Source of the DNA: an uncultured Paracoccaceae bacterium
GTDB taxonomy: Bacteria > Pseudomonadota > Alphaproteobacteria > Rhodobacterales > Rhodobacteraceae
DNA: 64,000 nt
Direction of reading: 5' to 3'
Assembly (NCBI GenBank): GCA_938016515.1
Contig: CALILP010000034.1
Location: forward strand, 1 to 64,000
The notes beneath the pieces were generated by a model that was not told where the DNA came from, made no database searches, and saw only the letters and a program-made list of their open reading frames with translations. Position 1 is the stretch's first letter. Each line of letters opens with the position of its first letter. The translations under genes and the position numbers were made by a program. This document shows positions 47,959-58,650 of the stretch, in pieces.

Positions 47959-49020
<1,062 letters not shown>

Positions 49021-49099
49021 GGGTTTCCCCTCCCCGCACTGTGCAAGCGCGATGCTTGCAGTTTCATTCGATAGCCGACAGCACGTCGTGGGTGCTGTG

Positions 49100-49129
49100 C
49101 CAGATCATCTTGTACCAGATCATCCTGTA
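49100..49129. repeat. Two tandem 15-bp repeats CCAGATCATC(T/C)TGTA in the ABC-transporter divergent promoter region
   Basis: Contiguous copies 49100-49114 and 49115-49129, one mismatch. Confidence 0.7.
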
Positions 49130-49302
49130 AATGCGTGCAACGCTCCCCTCCCGAGGGTCAGTTTGCTGTCGCGCATGATCACGGCTACCGTTCGACCTGT
49201 TGACAACACTAGGCGAGTCGCGTTTTAGTTTCAATATTCAAAACTAGGTTTCAAATAATGAGACCAAATGCGAATATCGACGGAGCACCAGGGAGGACAC
49301 CA

Positions 49303-50565
49303 ATGCGTTCCATCATGAAAACATCCTTTGCAGCCCTTGCGGCAGCAAGCATCGCAGCAACCGCTGCTATCGCAGACGGCCACCAGCTGTCTGGCGACCT
49401 GAAAATCACATCAGACATGTCCAACCCAGCACCACGTGCTGTGATGGAAGGCCTTGTCGCTGACTTTGGCGCATTGCACCCAGATCTGAACATCGAGCTG
49501 ACGATCGTTGATCGTGAAGCCTGGAAAACACAAATCCGGAACGCGCTGTCCGCGAACCCGCCAGACGTCGTGAACTGGTATGCTGCCAACCGTATGAAGC
49601 CATACGTCGATGCGGGCCTTTTTGCAGACATCTCTGACCTCTGGGCAGAAGAAGAGTTCGCAGCACTGGCATCCACCAAAGGTGCGATGACGCTGAACGA
49701 CGCCCAGTGGGGTGTGCCGTACACGTATTACCAGTGGGGCGTTTACTACCGCAAAGACATCTTCGAAGAGCTTGGCCTTGAAGAGCCAACAACTTGGGAT
49801 GAAGAGAAAGCCAACTGTCAGGCAATCCTCGACTCTGGTCGTAAGTGCTACACCATCGGCTCCAAGTTCCTGTGGACAGCTGGCGGCTGGTTTGACTACA
49901 TCAACTCCCGCACAAACGGCTATGACTTCCACATCGCGCTGGCTTCTGGCGAGATCGAGTGGACAGACGACCGCGTCCGTCAGACATTCGCCAACTGGCG
50001 CGAGCTGATCGACATGGGGGCGTTCATCGACGACCACCAGACTTACTCTTGGCAGGAAGCCCTGCCATTCATGGTCAACGGTGAAGCCGCATCTTATCTG
50101 ATGGGTAACTTCTCTGTCGCAGCCTTCCGCGAAGGCGGCCTGACAGACGACCAGCTGGACTTCTACCAGTTCCCGGTTATCAACCCTGACGTTGATTTTG
50201 CGGAAGACGCGCCAACAGATACGTTTCACCTGACCTCTGGCGCAGCAAATCCTGAAGCCGGGAAGGAATTCCTGCGCTTTGTGACATCCGCTGACGTTCA
50301 GACAAAGATCAACTCGGGCGACGCGCTGGGTCAGCTGCCAGTGAACGCAAACTCTTCTATCGACGATGACAAGTTCCTTGCCGAAGGCTTCGAGATGCTT
50401 TCAACCAACGCAGGTGGCGGCATCATGCAGTTCTTCGACCGTGACTTCTCTGCAGAGATGGCATCTGTCGGCATGGAAGGCCTGCAAGAGTTCATGGTGT
50501 TCCCAGATAACCTGGACGACATCCTGGCCCGCTTGGAAGACACGCGTCAGCGTATCTATCAGTAA
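49303..50565 (+). CDS. ABC transporter sugar-type substrate-binding protein, candidate SQ/SQ-glycoside binding protein
   Basis: Signal peptide MKTSFAALAAASIAATAAIADG; ExtSBP1 pattern NPPDVVNWYAANRMKPYVDAGLFADISDLW. Confidence 0.93.
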   Translation: MRSIMKTSFAALAAASIAATAAIADGHQLSGDLKITSDMSNPAPRAVMEGLVADFGALHPDLNIELTIVDREAWKTQIRNALSANPPDVVNWYAANRMKPYVDAGLFADISDLWAEEEFAALASTKGAMTLNDAQWGVPYTYYQWGVYYRKDIFEELGLEEPTTWDEEKANCQAILDSGRKCYTIGSKFLWTAGGWFDYINSRTNGYDFHIALASGEIEWTDDRVRQTFANWRELIDMGAFIDDHQTYSWQEALPFMVNGEAASYLMGNFSVAAFREGGLTDDQLDFYQFPVINPDVDFAEDAPTDTFHLTSGAANPEAGKEFLRFVTSADVQTKINSGDALGQLPVNANSSIDDDKFLAEGFEMLSTNAGGGIMQFFDRDFSAEMASVGMEGLQEFMVFPDNLDDILARLEDTRQRIYQ

Positions 50566-50590
50566 GCAAATACTGTGCACCCGCCCTACC

Positions 50591-50612
50591 GTAGGGTGGG
50601 TGCAACCCACGT
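50591..50612 (+). repeat. GTAGGGTGGGTGCAACCCACGT hairpin repeat between binding-protein and permease genes
   Basis: Related to copies at 29811, 47761, 47891, 52857. Confidence 0.85.
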
Positions 50613-50721
50613 GCGTCGGATCAGCCCGCAGCACGGCTCCGGCACCAAACGTACCAACCCATCCGCAAGGCCATCGATCCGGGCCTTTCGCATGTGTTGA
50701 CCTTGGGGAGGAGACGACACC

Positions 50722-51666
50722 ATGACCACCGCGAGTACAAACACCCAACCCGCCGAACGCGGCTGGTATAAACGCAACGAAATCGCGATTACACCGTGGC
50801 TGTTTCTGCTGCCGGCAATCCTGTTCTTTGCGGTCTATGTTATTATGCCTATCGCACAATCCTTCTGGATCTCATTCCATGCGTGGGACGGTCTAGGAGA
50901 GAAAACATGGGTGGGGACTGCGAACTACGAACGGCTGTTCGGAATCGGGGACCAGAATATGGACCGCAAGTTCCAGATCTCGTTCTGGAACAACATTAAA
51001 TGGCTGTTCCTCTATCTACTGGCCATCCCCATGGGCTTGTTCATCGCTCTCTTCCTGAACCAAACAGTGAGGGGGATCAGGCTTTATAAGTCTCTGTTCT
51101 TCTTCCCCTTTGTGATCTCACAGGTCGTCGTGGGTCTCGTGTTCTCATGGTTTTATCTGCCTAACGACGGAGCCTTCGACCAGATTGTGGGCCTCTTCGG
51201 GATCGACATCTCTGGTGGGGTCCTTGGCAACCCGAATACAGCCACCTACGGGATCATCGCAGCGGGGCTTTGGCCACAAACGGCCTATTGCATGATCCTC
51301 TACCTGACGGGTCTGAACGCAGTAGACCCAGAACAGGTCGAGGCAGCACGTCTGGACGGCGCAAAGGGCTGGAAAATGCTGTGGTACGTGATCGTGCCGC
51401 AACTCAAACCAGCAACCTTCATCGCCTTCGTGGTCACCATCGTTGGCGCGCTACGGAGCTTTGACTTTATCGCGGTGATGACCAACGGCGGACCGTTCGG
51501 GTCCACACGGGTCCTCAGCTTCTACATGTTCGAGGAATCGCTGTCGGAATTTGGTTTCCGCATGGGGTACGGGGCGGCCATCGCCGTGGTTCTGTTCTTC
51601 ATCATGCTGGGCTTTATCGTCTACTTCCTGTGGTCGATGTACCAAGACGAAAAGGGAGCGCACTGA
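50722..51666 (+). CDS. Sugar ABC transporter permease (MalF-type)
   Basis: PWLFLLPAILFFAVYVIMPIAQSFWISFHAWDG; EAA loop EQVEAARLDGAKGWKMLWYVIVPQLKP. Confidence 0.95.
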   Translation: MTTASTNTQPAERGWYKRNEIAITPWLFLLPAILFFAVYVIMPIAQSFWISFHAWDGLGEKTWVGTANYERLFGIGDQNMDRKFQISFWNNIKWLFLYLLAIPMGLFIALFLNQTVRGIRLYKSLFFFPFVISQVVVGLVFSWFYLPNDGAFDQIVGLFGIDISGGVLGNPNTATYGIIAAGLWPQTAYCMILYLTGLNAVDPEQVEAARLDGAKGWKMLWYVIVPQLKPATFIAFVVTIVGALRSFDFIAVMTNGGPFGSTRVLSFYMFEESLSEFGFRMGYGAAIAVVLFFIMLGFIVYFLWSMYQDEKGAH

Positions 51667-51667
51667 T

Positions 51668-52516
51668 ATGTTTCCAACACCCATCGAAAAACAATCGCGC
51701 GGCATGCAAATCGGATATCAGGCGTTTCTGCCTGTGGCGCTGGTCCTTTGGCTCCTGCCGCTGCTTGCAGTCGCACTTTTCTCAATCAAGCCAGACGCAG
51801 ATTTCGCCAATGGCAACTTCTGGGGGCTGCCCTCTTCGTTCGAGGCGTTCAATAACTACGGCAAGGTGTTCTTTGAATCCAACATGCCGCGCTATCTGCT
51901 GAACTCGCTTCTGATTACAGTGCCCACGGTCATCGGGGCAGTGGCACTCTCGGCGATGGCGGGCTTTGCACTTGGGGTCTACCGGTTCAAAGGCAACCTG
52001 CTGATCTTCTTTATGTTCATCGCAGGCAACTTTGTGCCCTTCCAGATCTTGATGGTGCCAGTGCGGGACCTGACAGTCAGCCTTGGCATGTATGACACGA
52101 TCCGCGGCCTCGTGCTGTTCCACATTGCGTTCCAGACGGGGTTTTGCACGCTGTTCATGCGGAACTTCATCCGGGCCCTGCCCTTCCCGCTGATCGAAGC
52201 GGCACGGGTGGAAGGCATCGCAGAATGGCGCATCTTCTGGTACGTGGTCCTGCCCTTGATGAAACCGGCACTTGCAGCACTCGCAGTGCTGATCTTCACC
52301 TTCATCTGGAATGACTACTTCTGGGCAGTGGTGCTGACACAAGGGCCAAGCGCACAGCCAGTGACAGCAGGCATCACAGAGTTCAACTCGCAATTCCGGG
52401 CAGCCTACCACCTGATGAGCGCAGGCTCGATCGTGGCAGCCCTCCCGCCTGTGGCGATGTTCTTCCTGATGCAAAAGCACTTCATCGCGGGCCTGACCCT
52501 CGGCGCCGTCAAATAA
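51668..52516 (+). CDS. Sugar ABC transporter permease (MalG-type)
   Basis: EAA loop LIEAARVEGIAEWRIFWYVVLPLMKPALAAL; start at MFPTPIEKQSRGM. Confidence 0.95.
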   Translation: MFPTPIEKQSRGMQIGYQAFLPVALVLWLLPLLAVALFSIKPDADFANGNFWGLPSSFEAFNNYGKVFFESNMPRYLLNSLLITVPTVIGAVALSAMAGFALGVYRFKGNLLIFFMFIAGNFVPFQILMVPVRDLTVSLGMYDTIRGLVLFHIAFQTGFCTLFMRNFIRALPFPLIEAARVEGIAEWRIFWYVVLPLMKPALAALAVLIFTFIWNDYFWAVVLTQGPSAQPVTAGITEFNSQFRAAYHLMSAGSIVAALPPVAMFFLMQKHFIAGLTLGAVK

Positions 52517-52538: not shown

Positions 52539-52570
52539 AACAGGCGTCCGGCCCCACCCGGACGCCTGTT
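52539..52570. terminator. Strong hairpin AACAGGCGTCCGG-N-CCGGACGCCTGTT after the ABC permease gene
   Basis: 13-bp arms, 6-nt loop; A-rich 5' and T-rich 3' flanks. Confidence 0.75.
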
Positions 52571-52890: not shown

Positions 52891-53994
52891 TCACAAGTTG
52901 GCAAAATCAATCGAAATCGCCTGCCCTGTCCGCGCGCTTTCTTGTGCTGCCAAACCCATCGCCACAGCCCGTAACCCATCGTCGGCCGTCACCTCAACCA
53001 CACCTTCGCCACGGATCACCGCATTGAACCGCTGGTGCTGGTAAAACGTCGAGCCGTTGTGATCACCCGCTTCCAAAATCGCAGGGTCGACCGGGATCTC
53101 CGCAACAATCGGCCCTTTCGGCGCACGCGGCGAAATGATCAGCTGCGGCACCGGGGCATCACCCAGCGCCTTCGGCCAGAACCGTCCCGGTCCGGGCACC
53201 AGCGCCTCGATTTTGGCCTTGGGGCCCATGGCCACGATCTCTTCCTGATACCGCGATCCTTCCGCGAACATACACAGCTCAAGCATCGCCCGGGCGCCAC
53301 CCGCGAAATCGATAATCACATAGCCATTGTCCCAGATATCCGGCGTCTGCCCGTCATAGCTTTCCTCGGTATGGTTCACCGACTGCCCAGCAGATGCCAT
53401 TACCCGCACCGGCTCGTCTTTCAAAATAAACCGCATCAGATCGAAGAAGTGACAGCATTTTTCCACCAGCGTGCCCCCGGTCTTGGCGTTGAACCGGTTC
53501 CAGTCTCCGATCTTGGGCAGGAACGGAAATCGGTGTTCGCGGACGGTTAACATCTTGATCCCACCCGTCGCCTGCTGCGCCTGCTCGATCAAGGCGGCAA
53601 CGGGTGGCATATAACGATATTCCATCGCGACCCAGAAAGGTGCGGGGTAATCAGCGGCCAAGTCCGCGACGGTCTGAGCTTGGCCCGGATCCGTATAAAG
53701 CGGCTTTTCACATAGGACCGGCAAAGGTCGGGTCTTGGCAATCACCTGCAACTGATCGACGTGTAGGTAATTTGGGCTGACGATTACCAATGCATCAAGG
53801 GCCTCAAACGCCAGCAGATCCTCAAGGCTTTCGGCCACATAGGCATCCCCCGCCAGAACCGCACAGCTCTGCGCCAGATCGCGCACCGGATCAAAAACAG
53901 CCAAGACCTTCCCGTGGGGAAGAAGTCCAATGTTCTGGATATGCTCGCGCGCCATCATCCCGCATCCGATGATGCCGTATCTTACCATTTCCAA
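52891..53994 (-). CDS. Gfo/Idh/MocA family NAD-dependent protein; candidate oxidoreductive sulfoquinovosidase (GH188/SqgA-type)
   Basis: YGIIGCGMMAREHIQNI Rossmann start; VLCEKPLYTD; GGTLVEKCCHFFDLMRFI. Family call firm; glycosidase role inferred from context. Confidence 0.88.
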   Translation of the reverse strand: MEMVRYGIIGCGMMAREHIQNIGLLPHGKVLAVFDPVRDLAQSCAVLAGDAYVAESLEDLLAFEALDALVIVSPNYLHVDQLQVIAKTRPLPVLCEKPLYTDPGQAQTVADLAADYPAPFWVAMEYRYMPPVAALIEQAQQATGGIKMLTVREHRFPFLPKIGDWNRFNAKTGGTLVEKCCHFFDLMRFILKDEPVRVMASAGQSVNHTEESYDGQTPDIWDNGYVIIDFAGGARAMLELCMFAEGSRYQEEIVAMGPKAKIEALVPGPGRFWPKALGDAPVPQLIISPRAPKGPIVAEIPVDPAILEAGDHNGSTFYQHQRFNAVIRGEGVVEVTADDGLRAVAMGLAAQESARTGQAISIDFANL

Positions 53995-53999
53995 CGTTG

Positions 54000-54719
54000 T
54001 TACCCTTTTCCCATGCGCGATACATAGCGCGCCTTGTCATAATCGAACCAAGTCCGCGAAAACTCTGCCGCAGCCCCTGTGCCATCCGCACTGATCCGCT
54101 CAATATATCCAGCCGTCTGTCCGGCCTGCATGTGATAGCTATCCGGCGTCCAATCCGGCATCGGCGCAACACCGATTTCATCAACGACCGACGCGATCAC
54201 AAGCCCCAGATCGTTCCGGTAGAAGTGGTACAAAGACTCGCTCAAGTCGGACATCGTCACCTGATCACGGTAACTGCCATCCAACCATATCTCTTCCAAA
54301 GCGATCAGCGCATCGCCCAAGTACCGCAACCGCCTGATCCGGTGCCCTTCATCCGACGCCCCAAAGGCCCGCGTTTTCGCCACCCGGTCCACGGACAAAA
54401 CCTGCGCCGTCGGCAATCCTGCCCCCGCCAGCAATTCCAGCCGAAAGAACGCATACAGGGCCGTATTCGCAGGAGCATGGCGCACGTAGTTGCCCGATCC
54501 CTGAACGCGGGTCAGCATGCCTTTCTCGGCGAGATCACCCAGCGCCTTGCGCAAGGTCCCCACCGAGATACCAAGGTCCGCTGCCATCTCACGTTCAGGC
54601 GGCAAACGTGCGCCATCGGCCAGATGGCCGGCGGCAATCTCGCGGATCAGCATTTCGCTGATCTGGATGTATTTTGGCAATGCCGCGCTGGCGTCCACAG
54701 GCCCGGTCCCTGATCCCAA
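54000..54719 (-). CDS. GntR family transcriptional regulator with UTRA (HutC-type) domain
   Basis: IREIAAGHLADGARLPPEREMAADLGISVGTLRKALGDLAEKGMLTRVQGSGNYV. Confidence 0.95.
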   Translation of the reverse strand: MGSGTGPVDASAALPKYIQISEMLIREIAAGHLADGARLPPEREMAADLGISVGTLRKALGDLAEKGMLTRVQGSGNYVRHAPANTALYAFFRLELLAGAGLPTAQVLSVDRVAKTRAFGASDEGHRIRRLRYLGDALIALEEIWLDGSYRDQVTMSDLSESLYHFYRNDLGLVIASVVDEIGVAPMPDWTPDSYHMQAGQTAGYIERISADGTGAAAEFSRTWFDYDKARYVSRMGKG

Positions 54720-54792
54720 TTGATATATGATTGATGCACCTAAAGTCCCATGCTAGGCAAGAGGCAACAGCGCACAATTTGCGGAGGAATCA

Positions 54793-55950
54793 ATGACCGT
54801 TGTCCCTATCACCAGCCCCGACCTTGATGCGGCAGAAGTCAGCTGGTTTTCCGCGCTTTGCTCTGATGACTACCAATTCCTTGGGGTGCCGGACGGCGAC
54901 CTGCGCTCCAGCTGGGAGCATTGCCGTGACATCGCCCTGACAGCAGAGAAGCAGGGCTTTCGGAATATCCTTGCGCCGTCCTCCTATCAGGTCGGCCAAG
55001 ACACAATGTCTTTCGTGTCCGGCATGGCCCCGCTTACCGAGAAGATCAATTTCCTTGCCGCGATCCGCTGCGGTGAGATGCAGCCGATTATGCTGGCGCG
55101 GACTGTGGCGACGCTGGATCACATGCTCAAAGGGCGCCTGACCCTCAACGTTATCTCATCGGATTTCCCCGGCGAGGTCGCGCCCTCTCCATACCGCTAC
55201 AAACGGTCCCACGAGGTCGTCCAAATCCTGCGGCAGGCGTGGACCCAAGACGAGATCAACCACGACGGTGAAGTCTACCAATTCGCCAACGTTCCAACTG
55301 GTCCGGCGAAACCTTACCAGCAGAACGGCGGCCCACTGCTTTACTTCGGCGGCTACTCTCCCGATGCGATGGAACTTTGCGGTGCCCAGTGTGATGTCTA
55401 TCTGATGTGGCCGGAAACCAAGGATATGCTGGAACAGCGGATGAAGGACGTGCATGCACGGGCGGAAGGCCATAACCGCACGCTAGACTACGGTCTGCGG
55501 GTCCATATGATCGTGCGGGATACGGAAGCCGAGGCGAAGGAATACGCTGACTACATCGCGAGCAAACTGGATGATGAATATGGCAAGCTGATCCGGGATC
55601 GGGCGCATGACAGCATCTCGCTCGGCGTGGCGCATCAAGCCAAAGCACGCGAGCTCGCCGATAAGTTCGGATACTCTGAGCCCGGCCTTTGGACTGGTGT
55701 TGGTCGCGCGCGGTCTGGCTGTGGCGCTGCTCTTGTCGGGTCAACAGATCAGGTTATCTCCAAGATCGAAGAGTACCAAAAGATGGGCATCCGCGCCTTC
55801 ATCTTCTCGGGCTATCCCCATATCGATGAGGCCGAACACTTTGGCAGCCGCGTGATGCCTCACCTGAAAACATGCTCGCTGCCGCACGCTTACGGGCGTG
55901 TCCCCGCAGAGACCCCCGCAACACCCCTTGGTACAGGACCCCGTACATGA
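54793..55950 (+). CDS. smoC: FMNH2-dependent LLM-class monooxygenase, SmoC-like sulfoquinovose monooxygenase candidate
   Basis: SsuD-family fold: GFRNILAPSSYQVGQDTMSFVSGMAPLTEKINFLAAIRCGE; GGPLLYFGGYSPDAMELC; WTGVGRARSGCGAALVGS; operonic with AKR and flavin reductase. Confidence 0.82.
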   Translation: MTVVPITSPDLDAAEVSWFSALCSDDYQFLGVPDGDLRSSWEHCRDIALTAEKQGFRNILAPSSYQVGQDTMSFVSGMAPLTEKINFLAAIRCGEMQPIMLARTVATLDHMLKGRLTLNVISSDFPGEVAPSPYRYKRSHEVVQILRQAWTQDEINHDGEVYQFANVPTGPAKPYQQNGGPLLYFGGYSPDAMELCGAQCDVYLMWPETKDMLEQRMKDVHARAEGHNRTLDYGLRVHMIVRDTEAEAKEYADYIASKLDDEYGKLIRDRAHDSISLGVAHQAKARELADKFGYSEPGLWTGVGRARSGCGAALVGSTDQVISKIEEYQKMGIRAFIFSGYPHIDEAEHFGSRVMPHLKTCSLPHAYGRVPAETPATPLGTGPRT

Positions 55951-56837
55951 ACCGCGTTTCCATCACCGACGACCTTTCTTTCAGCCGCATCGTCTACGGC
56001 ATGTGGCGCTTGTCCGACGACAGCGACACCAGCACAGGCCACGTGCAAGCCAAAATCGAGGCCTGTCTGGAACAGGGCATCACCACGATGGACCAAGCCG
56101 ACATCTACGGCGGTTATGAAGCAGAAGAGGTCTTGGGCAACGCCTTGAAGGCGGCCCCCCACCTGAAAGACAAGATCGAGATCGTCACCAAGTGCGACAT
56201 CCTGATCCCGGCTGGGCGCTATTCCGGTGTCTCCGGTAAGTTCTACGACACGAGCCGCGCGCATATTGAGGCGTCCGTGGATCATTCCCTACGGCTGATG
56301 AACGTCGATCGGATCGACACGTTGCTGATCCACCGTCCCGATCCGCTGATGGACCACCATGAAACGGGGGCTGCTTTGGACGCTGTTGTGGCGTCCGGGA
56401 AAGTGCGCACCGTCGGTGTGTCCAATTTCAAACTTCACGACTGGACGCTGCTGCAATCTGCCATGACCAACAAGCTGGTCACCAACCAGATCGAACTCAG
56501 CCTCACCGCTCACGAAGGCTTCACCAACGGCGATGTCGCCTACCTGCAAGAGCGCGGCGTGCCGATTATGGCTTGGTCCCCTCTTGGCGGTGGCGCTTTG
56601 CTGACATCCGACAGTGCGACCCGCGCACTGATGACCGAGATCGGCGATGCTCACGGCGTTGACGCAAGTGCTGTTGCTGTTGCCTGGCTTCTGGCGCATC
56701 CTGCGGGGATCATGCCTGTGATGGGCACCAATACACTCAGCCGGATTGCCGCGTTGTCGGACGCCCTCAAGGTCGACATGACACGCGAACGCTGGTTCCA
56801 GCTTTATACCGCCGCACTTGGCCACGAGGTTCCTTAA
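55947..56837 (+). CDS. smoB: Aldo/keto reductase, SmoB-like 6-oxo-glucose reductase candidate
   Basis: RIVYGMWRLSDDSDTSTGHVQAKIEACLEQGITTMDQADIYGGYEAEEVLGNALKAAP; VTNQIELSLTAHEGFTNGD. Confidence 0.82.
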   Translation: MNRVSITDDLSFSRIVYGMWRLSDDSDTSTGHVQAKIEACLEQGITTMDQADIYGGYEAEEVLGNALKAAPHLKDKIEIVTKCDILIPAGRYSGVSGKFYDTSRAHIEASVDHSLRLMNVDRIDTLLIHRPDPLMDHHETGAALDAVVASGKVRTVGVSNFKLHDWTLLQSAMTNKLVTNQIELSLTAHEGFTNGDVAYLQERGVPIMAWSPLGGGALLTSDSATRALMTEIGDAHGVDASAVAVAWLLAHPAGIMPVMGTNTLSRIAALSDALKVDMTRERWFQLYTAALGHEVP

Positions 56838-57337
56838 TGAACGCACCAACAACATTTGATCCAGCAGTTGACGCACGCAGCTTTCGCGACGCGCTTGGGT
56901 CCTTCGTGACCGGCGTGACGGTCGTCACAACCGACAGCCCCGAAGGCCCGGTTGCGATCGTGGCCAACAGCTTTGCCAGTGTGTCTTTGGACCCGCCGTT
57001 GGTGCTGTGGTCGCCTGCGAAGGCCTCCAAGCGGTTCGAGCATTTCGCAGGCTCTCGCAGGTTTGCCGTCCACATTCTGGGGGCCGATCAACAGGATGTC
57101 TGCGCTCAGATCATTGCCTCCAAGACCGCCATCAGCAAGGTGCCGATGCATCTGTCCCATTGCGGGATGCCGATTATCGAAGGGGCTTTGTCGACATTTG
57201 AGTGTAATCTTGAAGCGACCCATGATGCCGGTGATCATGTGATCGTCGTGGGCTTGGTCACCAAAGCGCACCATCAGGGGGGCGATCCGCTGGTGTTTCA
57301 TGGCGGCAAGTACGGTGCGTTTCATCCAGCGGAATGA
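56837..57337 (+). CDS. smoA: Flavin reductase (SmoA-like NAD(P)H:FMN reductase)
   Basis: FRDALGSFVTGVTVVTTDSPEGPVAIVANSFASVSLDPPLVLWSPAKASKRFEHFAGSRRFAVHIL. Confidence 0.85.
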   Translation: MNAPTTFDPAVDARSFRDALGSFVTGVTVVTTDSPEGPVAIVANSFASVSLDPPLVLWSPAKASKRFEHFAGSRRFAVHILGADQQDVCAQIIASKTAISKVPMHLSHCGMPIIEGALSTFECNLEATHDAGDHVIVVGLVTKAHHQGGDPLVFHGGKYGAFHPAE

Positions 57338-57453: not shown

Positions 57454-58650
57454 CTAGTCCTGCCGGATCAGTACGCCAAGATCAGCCACATTGGTGCCTG
57501 TCGCCTCTGTCATCAAGAGATCACCAGCGAGGTGAAGGGCCGCGTAGCTATCGTTGTTTGCAAGCAGCCCCCCGAGGTCTCCACCTGCTGCTTTGATCCG
57601 GTCAAGCGTCCCCTCGTCTACAAGCCCGCCCGCCGCATCGGTTGGCCCATCCCGCCCATCTGATCCGCCCTGCAGGCAGGTCCATTTGGTCCAGCCCCGG
57701 TCTTTGGCCTGCAGTGCAATCCGCAAGGCCAGTTCTTGGTTGCGCCCCCCGCGCCCGGTGCCTTTGAGGACCACAGTCGTTTCTCCGCCCCACAGTGTGA
57801 TGCCTGACCCCGCCTGATCGCAGATCGCTTTCGCAGCATCCGCCACGTCTCCTTCAACCGGATCGAGAACTTTGGCCTGTGGCACCTTTTCCGCCATGGC
57901 GGCCACGCTTTGCCCGTTGGATCCAATCAGGATATTGCGATGGTTTGGCAAACGTGATGGTGCCCGAGCGTTTTTCAAATGGGTTTGGATGGCACCTGGC
58001 ACCTGGTCCCAGATCCTCGCCTGATCCAATACCTCAATCGCTTGCGCGGCCGTCCCAAGCGGTGGCGCTGTTGGCCCACTGGCGATCGTCGACAGATCGT
58101 CCCCCACAACGTCCGACAGGATCAGGGCTGTCACAGGATGCGGGGCTGCTGCCTGTAAAAAGCCACCCCCTTTGATCCGGCTAACCTGTTGGCGCACCAG
58201 GTTCATTTGGGTGATATCCAGACCAGCCCCCAAGAGAAGAGCGTTGAGCCGGGCTTTTTCCGCCAAAGATACCCCATCAGCGGGTGCAGGCAACAAAGCT
58301 GACCCTCCGCCCGAGATCAGGGCAAGCACCGGTCCGGTGACCTGTCCCAGATCATCTAGCACAGCCTCTGCAGCGATAGCTCCATTTTCATCCGGCACCG
58401 GATGGCCCGCAGCCATTACCCTGGTCCCGGCCAGGTCCACCGCGTTCTCGTAGTTCGTCACAACCCGTGTCGGGACCCCTGGGAACGCCGCTAAGGCAGC
58501 TTCGGCCATTTGAACCCCTGCTTTGCCAACTGCAATCATCAAAGCAGGTTGATCTACCTCACCGATATGGCGGGCCACAGCCGCCCTCGGGTCTGCGGCA
58601 ACAACCCCGGCAGTAAAAATCTGGCGGGCATGGGCACGCAGGTCGGTCAT
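57454..58650 (-). CDS. Glycerate kinase, MOFRL/TtuD (GckA) family
   Basis: MIAVGKAGVQMAEAALAAFPG; ALISGGGSALLPAPADGVSLAEKARLNALLLGAG; LILSDVVGDDLSTIASGPTAPP. Confidence 0.93.
   Translation of the reverse strand: MTDLRAHARQIFTAGVVAADPRAAVARHIGEVDQPALMIAVGKAGVQMAEAALAAFPGVPTRVVTNYENAVDLAGTRVMAAGHPVPDENGAIAAEAVLDDLGQVTGPVLALISGGGSALLPAPADGVSLAEKARLNALLLGAGLDITQMNLVRQQVSRIKGGGFLQAAAPHPVTALILSDVVGDDLSTIASGPTAPPLGTAAQAIEVLDQARIWDQVPGAIQTHLKNARAPSRLPNHRNILIGSNGQSVAAMAEKVPQAKVLDPVEGDVADAAKAICDQAGSGITLWGGETTVVLKGTGRGGRNQELALRIALQAKDRGWTKWTCLQGGSDGRDGPTDAAGGLVDEGTLDRIKAAGGDLGGLLANNDSYAALHLAGDLLMTEATGTNVADLGVLIRQD

Follow-up and report, generated by a model that had tools for sequence, protein, structure and literature searches.

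The sulfo-SMO cluster of Agrobacterium tumefaciens combines the GH31 enzyme SmoI with the ABC transporter SmoEFGH. The SmoA, SmoB and SmoC chemistry of that cluster is common to the locus described here, which carries a GH188 gene where A. tumefaciens has GH31 and whose adjoining ABC transporter has a binding protein that is no orthologue of SmoF. The A. tumefaciens transporter is noted in PMC9594981. Kaur et al. 2023 (PMC10755693) defined family GH188 from the FlSqgA and ArSqgA enzymes, listed their active-site residues, and reported that nearly all sulfo-SMO clusters in the marine Roseobacter clade carry GH188 and lack GH31. SqgA activity has been assayed for proteins of Arthrobacter, Flavobacterium and Cryobacterium, and the described Arthrobacter SqgA cluster is of the sulfo-EMP type, whereas the present one is sulfo-SMO.

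The window, which is the whole 64,000-nucleotide stretch of DNA that was analysed, contains a predicted sqgA gene beside a GntR-type regulator gene and divergent SMO genes (Table 1). The encoded protein resembles FlSqgA (8qc2/8qc8) and ArSqgA (8qc3/8qc5/8qc6) over its full length at 52-53% identity and has the same catalytic and sulfonate-binding residues, and its sulfoquinovose degradation cluster likewise lacks GH31. The arrangement is the same as in the GH188/sulfo-SMO clusters of the Roseobacter clade (Kaur et al. 2023, Figs 5 and S17); unlike in those clusters, the TRAP transporter genes lie on a separate contig and a galactoside-type ABC transporter adjoins the SMO genes instead. Because the exchange of GH31 for GH188 is already published for this clade, the gene is a further GH188 member in a known setting and not a new substitution.

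Table 1. Features at and around the predicted sqgA locus (positions in the window)
Feature	Position	Strand	Basis
ABC sugar transporter, putative galactoside importer	47959..52516		orthologues in IclR/GH36/GH42/DgoK operons
ABC ATPase	47959-49020	-	
ABC binding protein	49258-50565	+	
ABC permeases (two)	50722-51666 and 51551-52516	+ (both)	
Terminator-like hairpin between ABC transporter and sqgA	52539..52570	-	pattern scan, 13 pairs, T-rich tail
sqgA, predicted GH188 NAD+-dependent sulfoquinovosidase, 367 aa	52891..53994	-	PDB phmmer matches and residue mapping
GntR/UTRA regulator gene, leading the gntR-sqgA unit	54000..54719	-	Pfam GntR and UTRA; adjoins sqgA in 79/80 relatives
Operator-like motif AATTGATATATGATTGATGCAC in the gntR-smoC interval, with ATTGAT occurring twice, 11 bp apart	54718..54739	+	motif scan
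smoC-like FMN-dependent sulfoquinovose monooxygenase (C-S cleavage)	54793..55950	+	PDB match 7olf, 7oh2
smoB-like aldo-keto reductase (6-oxo-glucose to glucose)	55947..56837	+	7bbz match; Pfam Aldo_ket_red
smoA-like flavin reductase	56837..57337	+	Pfam Flavin_Reduct; position conserved in relatives

Identity of the Gfo/Idh/MocA protein

The sqgA reading frame is uninterrupted and begins with a TTG codon that has a GGG run 8 nt upstream, and its product contains both the N- and the C-terminal domain of the Gfo/Idh/MocA superfamily (Pfam). Only 5 bp separate the stop codon of the GntR/UTRA gene from the sqgA start, and the frequent spacing of 3-6 bp between the two genes in relatives is consistent with co-transcription. 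The first-pass annotation had described a Gfo/Idh/MocA gene 5 bp from, and apparently co-transcribed with, the GntR gene, and the reading frame, the domains and the spacing bear this out.

A phmmer search of all PDB chains returned 8zn9 as the top match (E 7.8e-153, 62% identity), a structure deposited as 'Oxidoreductase, putative' for which a literature search found no citing paper, together with FlSqgA 8qc2 (E 8.7e-117, 53% identity) and ArSqgA 8qc3 (E 8.3e-115, 52% identity). The first match after the SqgA-type chains is the inositol dehydrogenase 4hkt with an E-value of 2.3e-17, about 100 orders of magnitude weaker, and full-length similarity to the characterised SqgA enzymes is thus well above that to other Gfo/Idh/MocA enzymes. 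In a tree of SqgA with five Gfo/Idh/MocA paralogues from the same genome, the paralogue branches reach about 10 changes per site and only the closest neighbours are informative.

The active-site residues of ArSqgA, taken from PMC10755693 and mapped onto the protein, correspond to K97, Y126, E153, R155, L159, K161, E178, H182 and H312, and all nine catalytic or substrate-contact positions are kept here and in 80/80 relatives. The catalytic residues K107, Y136, E189, H193 and H321 of ArSqgA are K97, Y126, E178, H182 and H312, respectively, and the sulfonate triad R166, L170 and K172 is R155, L159 and K161. The residue published as 'Glu163' aligns with a position that is not conserved, and the conserved glutamate, E153 in the present protein, lies one residue later, probably reflecting a difference in numbering. 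In its sulfonate-site residues the protein differs from the Tyr variant described in PMC11465081.

Dehydrogenases make up most of the Gfo/Idh/MocA fold and the nearest NCBIfam model to the protein is that of inositol 2-dehydrogenase (IolG), features that would suit an NAD(P)-dependent dehydrogenase of free sulfoquinovose or 6-oxo-glucose performing a net oxidation with no glycoside cleavage. However, the match to this model (TIGR04380) reaches 107.3 bits, far under its cut-off of 355, all SqgA-specific residues including the sulfonate triad and the aglycone-side H312 are retained, and the sulfo-SMO route does not require an extra dehydrogenase, so that such an activity is very improbable. Orthology to inositol dehydrogenase, which the first-pass annotation had named as one of two observations that would overturn its reading, was therefore not found.

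The second such observation was a GH31 sulfoquinovosidase elsewhere under the same regulator. A search of the whole assembly, which is 81.4% complete, gave no match to GH31 (PF01055), and this gateway enzyme of the sulfo-SMO pathway is likely to be truly absent. Across 121 genomes of the family, SqgA is present in 47 of the 48 that carry SmoC (Fisher p 7e-21, a statistic that ignores kinship), and GH31 occurs in 14/121, nine of these with SmoC. Taken together, the homology to crystallised SqgA enzymes, the conserved active site and sulfonate pocket, the gene context and the absence of GH31 support, with high confidence, the prediction that the gene is sqgA and encodes a GH188 sulfoquinovosidase, and the earlier suggestion of an NAD-dependent enzyme of this type in place of GH31 is upheld by the same evidence.

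SMO genes, regulator and TRAP transporter

The genes divergent from gntR-sqgA encode SmoC-, SmoB- and SmoA-like proteins, so that SmoC, SmoB and a flavin reductase occur together in one cluster, as expected of a sulfo-SMO pathway. Full-length matches of the SmoC-like protein are 7olf (E 1.9e-222) and 7oh2 (E 2.2e-216), both presumably SmoC structures carrying generic names in the PDB, compared with E 8.2e-54 for SsuD 1nqk. The SmoB-like protein matches 7bbz, which we take to be SmoB, likewise under a generic name, with an E-value of 7.4e-125 across about 300 residues, again a full-length match. Past the SMO genes lies a glycerate 2-kinase-like gene (57454-58650, minus strand), which is also found near SMO genes in L029, L030 and L075.

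Gene context was compared across the 80 loci closest to the present SqgA by similarity, almost all of them from Rhodobacteraceae, in which shared context is to be read as consistency and not as an independent sample. Around sqgA, a GntR gene is present in 79/80, smoC in 79/80 and both in 78/80 of these relatives. In about nine of them (L017, L018, L020, L025, L030, L036, L056 and others), a gene for a TauE/SafE-like membrane protein, by its sequence a possible sulfite exporter, lies downstream of sqgA.

An operator motif, AATTGATACACTATTGATGCAC, was derived from the relatives only and is found upstream of smoC in 74/77 relatives with a score of more than 10 bits. In the window it has a sole match, between gntR and smoC, which scores 27.7 bits, whereas twenty shuffled 64-kb sequences gave 7.3 at most. 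As this site overlaps the TTG codon listed as the start of the GntR gene at 54719, the GTG at 54698 is probably the start instead. A pattern search of the whole genome returned only the window site, a site on contig C100 (1270-1291, 32.9 bits) upstream of a DctQ gene at 1419, and a weaker site that is present twice. The weaker copies, with 3 mismatches, lie at C65:232-253 and C159:172-193, directly upstream of a peptide-type ABC permease gene and next to sequence resembling an FMN riboswitch. C65 and C159 look like overlapping stretches of a single locus, and these matches were left out of the regulon. We infer that the GntR protein binds the 22-bp motif, and it probably represses gntR-sqgA, smoCBA and a distant TRAP transporter through a common operator.

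The TRAP transporter downstream of the C100 site consists of DctQ, DctM and DctP (L120:1270-4663), is unlinked from the window and has a DctP (C100:3602-4663) that is 82% identical to that of a relative (L024). Genes for DctQ, DctM and DctP lie directly 3' of smoCBA in at least 58/80 relatives, a minimum because gene calls in the relatives are imperfect. Given this conserved linkage to SMO genes in relatives and the shared operator motif, the TRAP transporter is more likely to import sulfoquinovose than the adjoining ABC transporter. Among the papers searched, which covered part of the key Roseobacter work, none was found that describes a sulfoquinovose TRAP transporter.

The adjoining ABC transporter

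The ABC transporter genes form a separate unit that is convergent with sqgA, and terminator-like hairpins such as the one between them are about as common in this region as in shuffled sequence (pattern scan). The first-pass annotation envisaged transporter, GH188 enzyme and SMO genes as a self-contained route, which would require that the ABC transporter has been recruited as an importer of sulfoquinovosyl glycerol. An orthologous set does adjoin SMO genes in one of the 80 relatives, Yoonia ponticola (L009), as it does here, and the ABC binding protein occurs together with SqgA in 44/48 cases among the 121 family genomes (p 2e-15, again ignoring kinship). Against this, the orthologues of the transporter, which are 71-78% identical, are placed in the galactoside operons of other family genomes; the binding protein has AcbH 3oo6 as its closest PDB match (E 6.7e-42) and resembles SmoF weakly (7nbz, E 3.5e-4 over only about 70 residues), which does not amount to orthology; and no operator motif was found at the transporter in the window scan.

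The galactoside operons of relatives encode IclR, a GH36 or GH4 alpha-galactosidase, a GH42 beta-galactosidase and a galactonate-type dehydratase, and also carry DgoK, a KDPG-type aldolase and a lactonase; these family names were confirmed with Pfam on the copy in the present genome, except GH4 and the dehydratase, which were assigned from sequence. The copy in the present genome, on contig C92 (L117:2551-10793), comprises IclR, GH36, DgoK, aldolase, lactonase, GH42 and an aldose epimerase, and lacks the operator motif in the whole-genome pattern search. In it, IclR directly faces GH36 and the transporter genes are missing where relatives have them, and the galactoside operon of Y. ponticola has the same gap. 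With both operons transporter-less, the cell would need the ABC transporter beside the SMO genes for galactosides, and the simplest reading of the gene neighbourhoods is that the galactoside transporter was relocated beside SMO in this lineage.

Recruitment to sulfoquinovosyl glycerol is accordingly unlikely, and the proposal of a self-contained unit is not supported, given the placement of the ABC orthologues and the operator shared with the TRAP genes. A reading of the co-occurrence with SqgA as support for a sulfoquinovose transport role is overturned by the gene neighbourhoods, and the correlation could stem from common ancestry or from joint use of thylakoid-lipid head groups. The ABC transporter is read as a putative galactoside importer because its orthologues belong to galactoside operons and the C92 operon has no transporter of its own, and it probably lies outside the sulfoquinovose route. 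A moderately probable reading of the gene order and operator sites is that the importer for the GH188/sulfo-SMO route in the Roseobacter group is the TRAP system (DctPQM) under the GntR operator of smoC, with the ABC transporter beside the present cluster being a relocated galactoside importer. A different sugar ABC transporter, with an ATPase 53-57% identical to that of the window and permeases about 25-30% identical, is found near SMO genes in L028, L044, L065 and L066; the transporter of the cluster thus varies by lineage.

Predicted route and its meaning

By analogy with the characterised GH188 enzymes, a sulfoquinovoside, for instance sulfoquinovosyl glycerol, would be transiently oxidised at C3 by the NAD+ bound to SqgA, its sulfonate being held by R155 and K161 together with the L159 backbone. 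The aglycone would then be eliminated across C1-C2 and water added, and re-reduction of C3 would complete a net hydrolysis that yields free sulfoquinovose and leaves NAD+ unchanged, the cofactor being used catalytically. SmoC together with SmoA would release sulfite from sulfoquinovose, and SmoB would reduce the resulting 6-oxo-glucose to glucose.

The signature of GH188 in place of GH31 marks the gateway enzyme in an unannotated genome of the Roseobacter group, and the organism is predicted to use sulfolipid head groups, beyond free sulfoquinovose. Adjacency alone would probably pick the wrong transporter, whereas the conserved operator and the relatives point to the TRAP system as a candidate for importing sulfoquinovose in an abundant group of marine bacteria.
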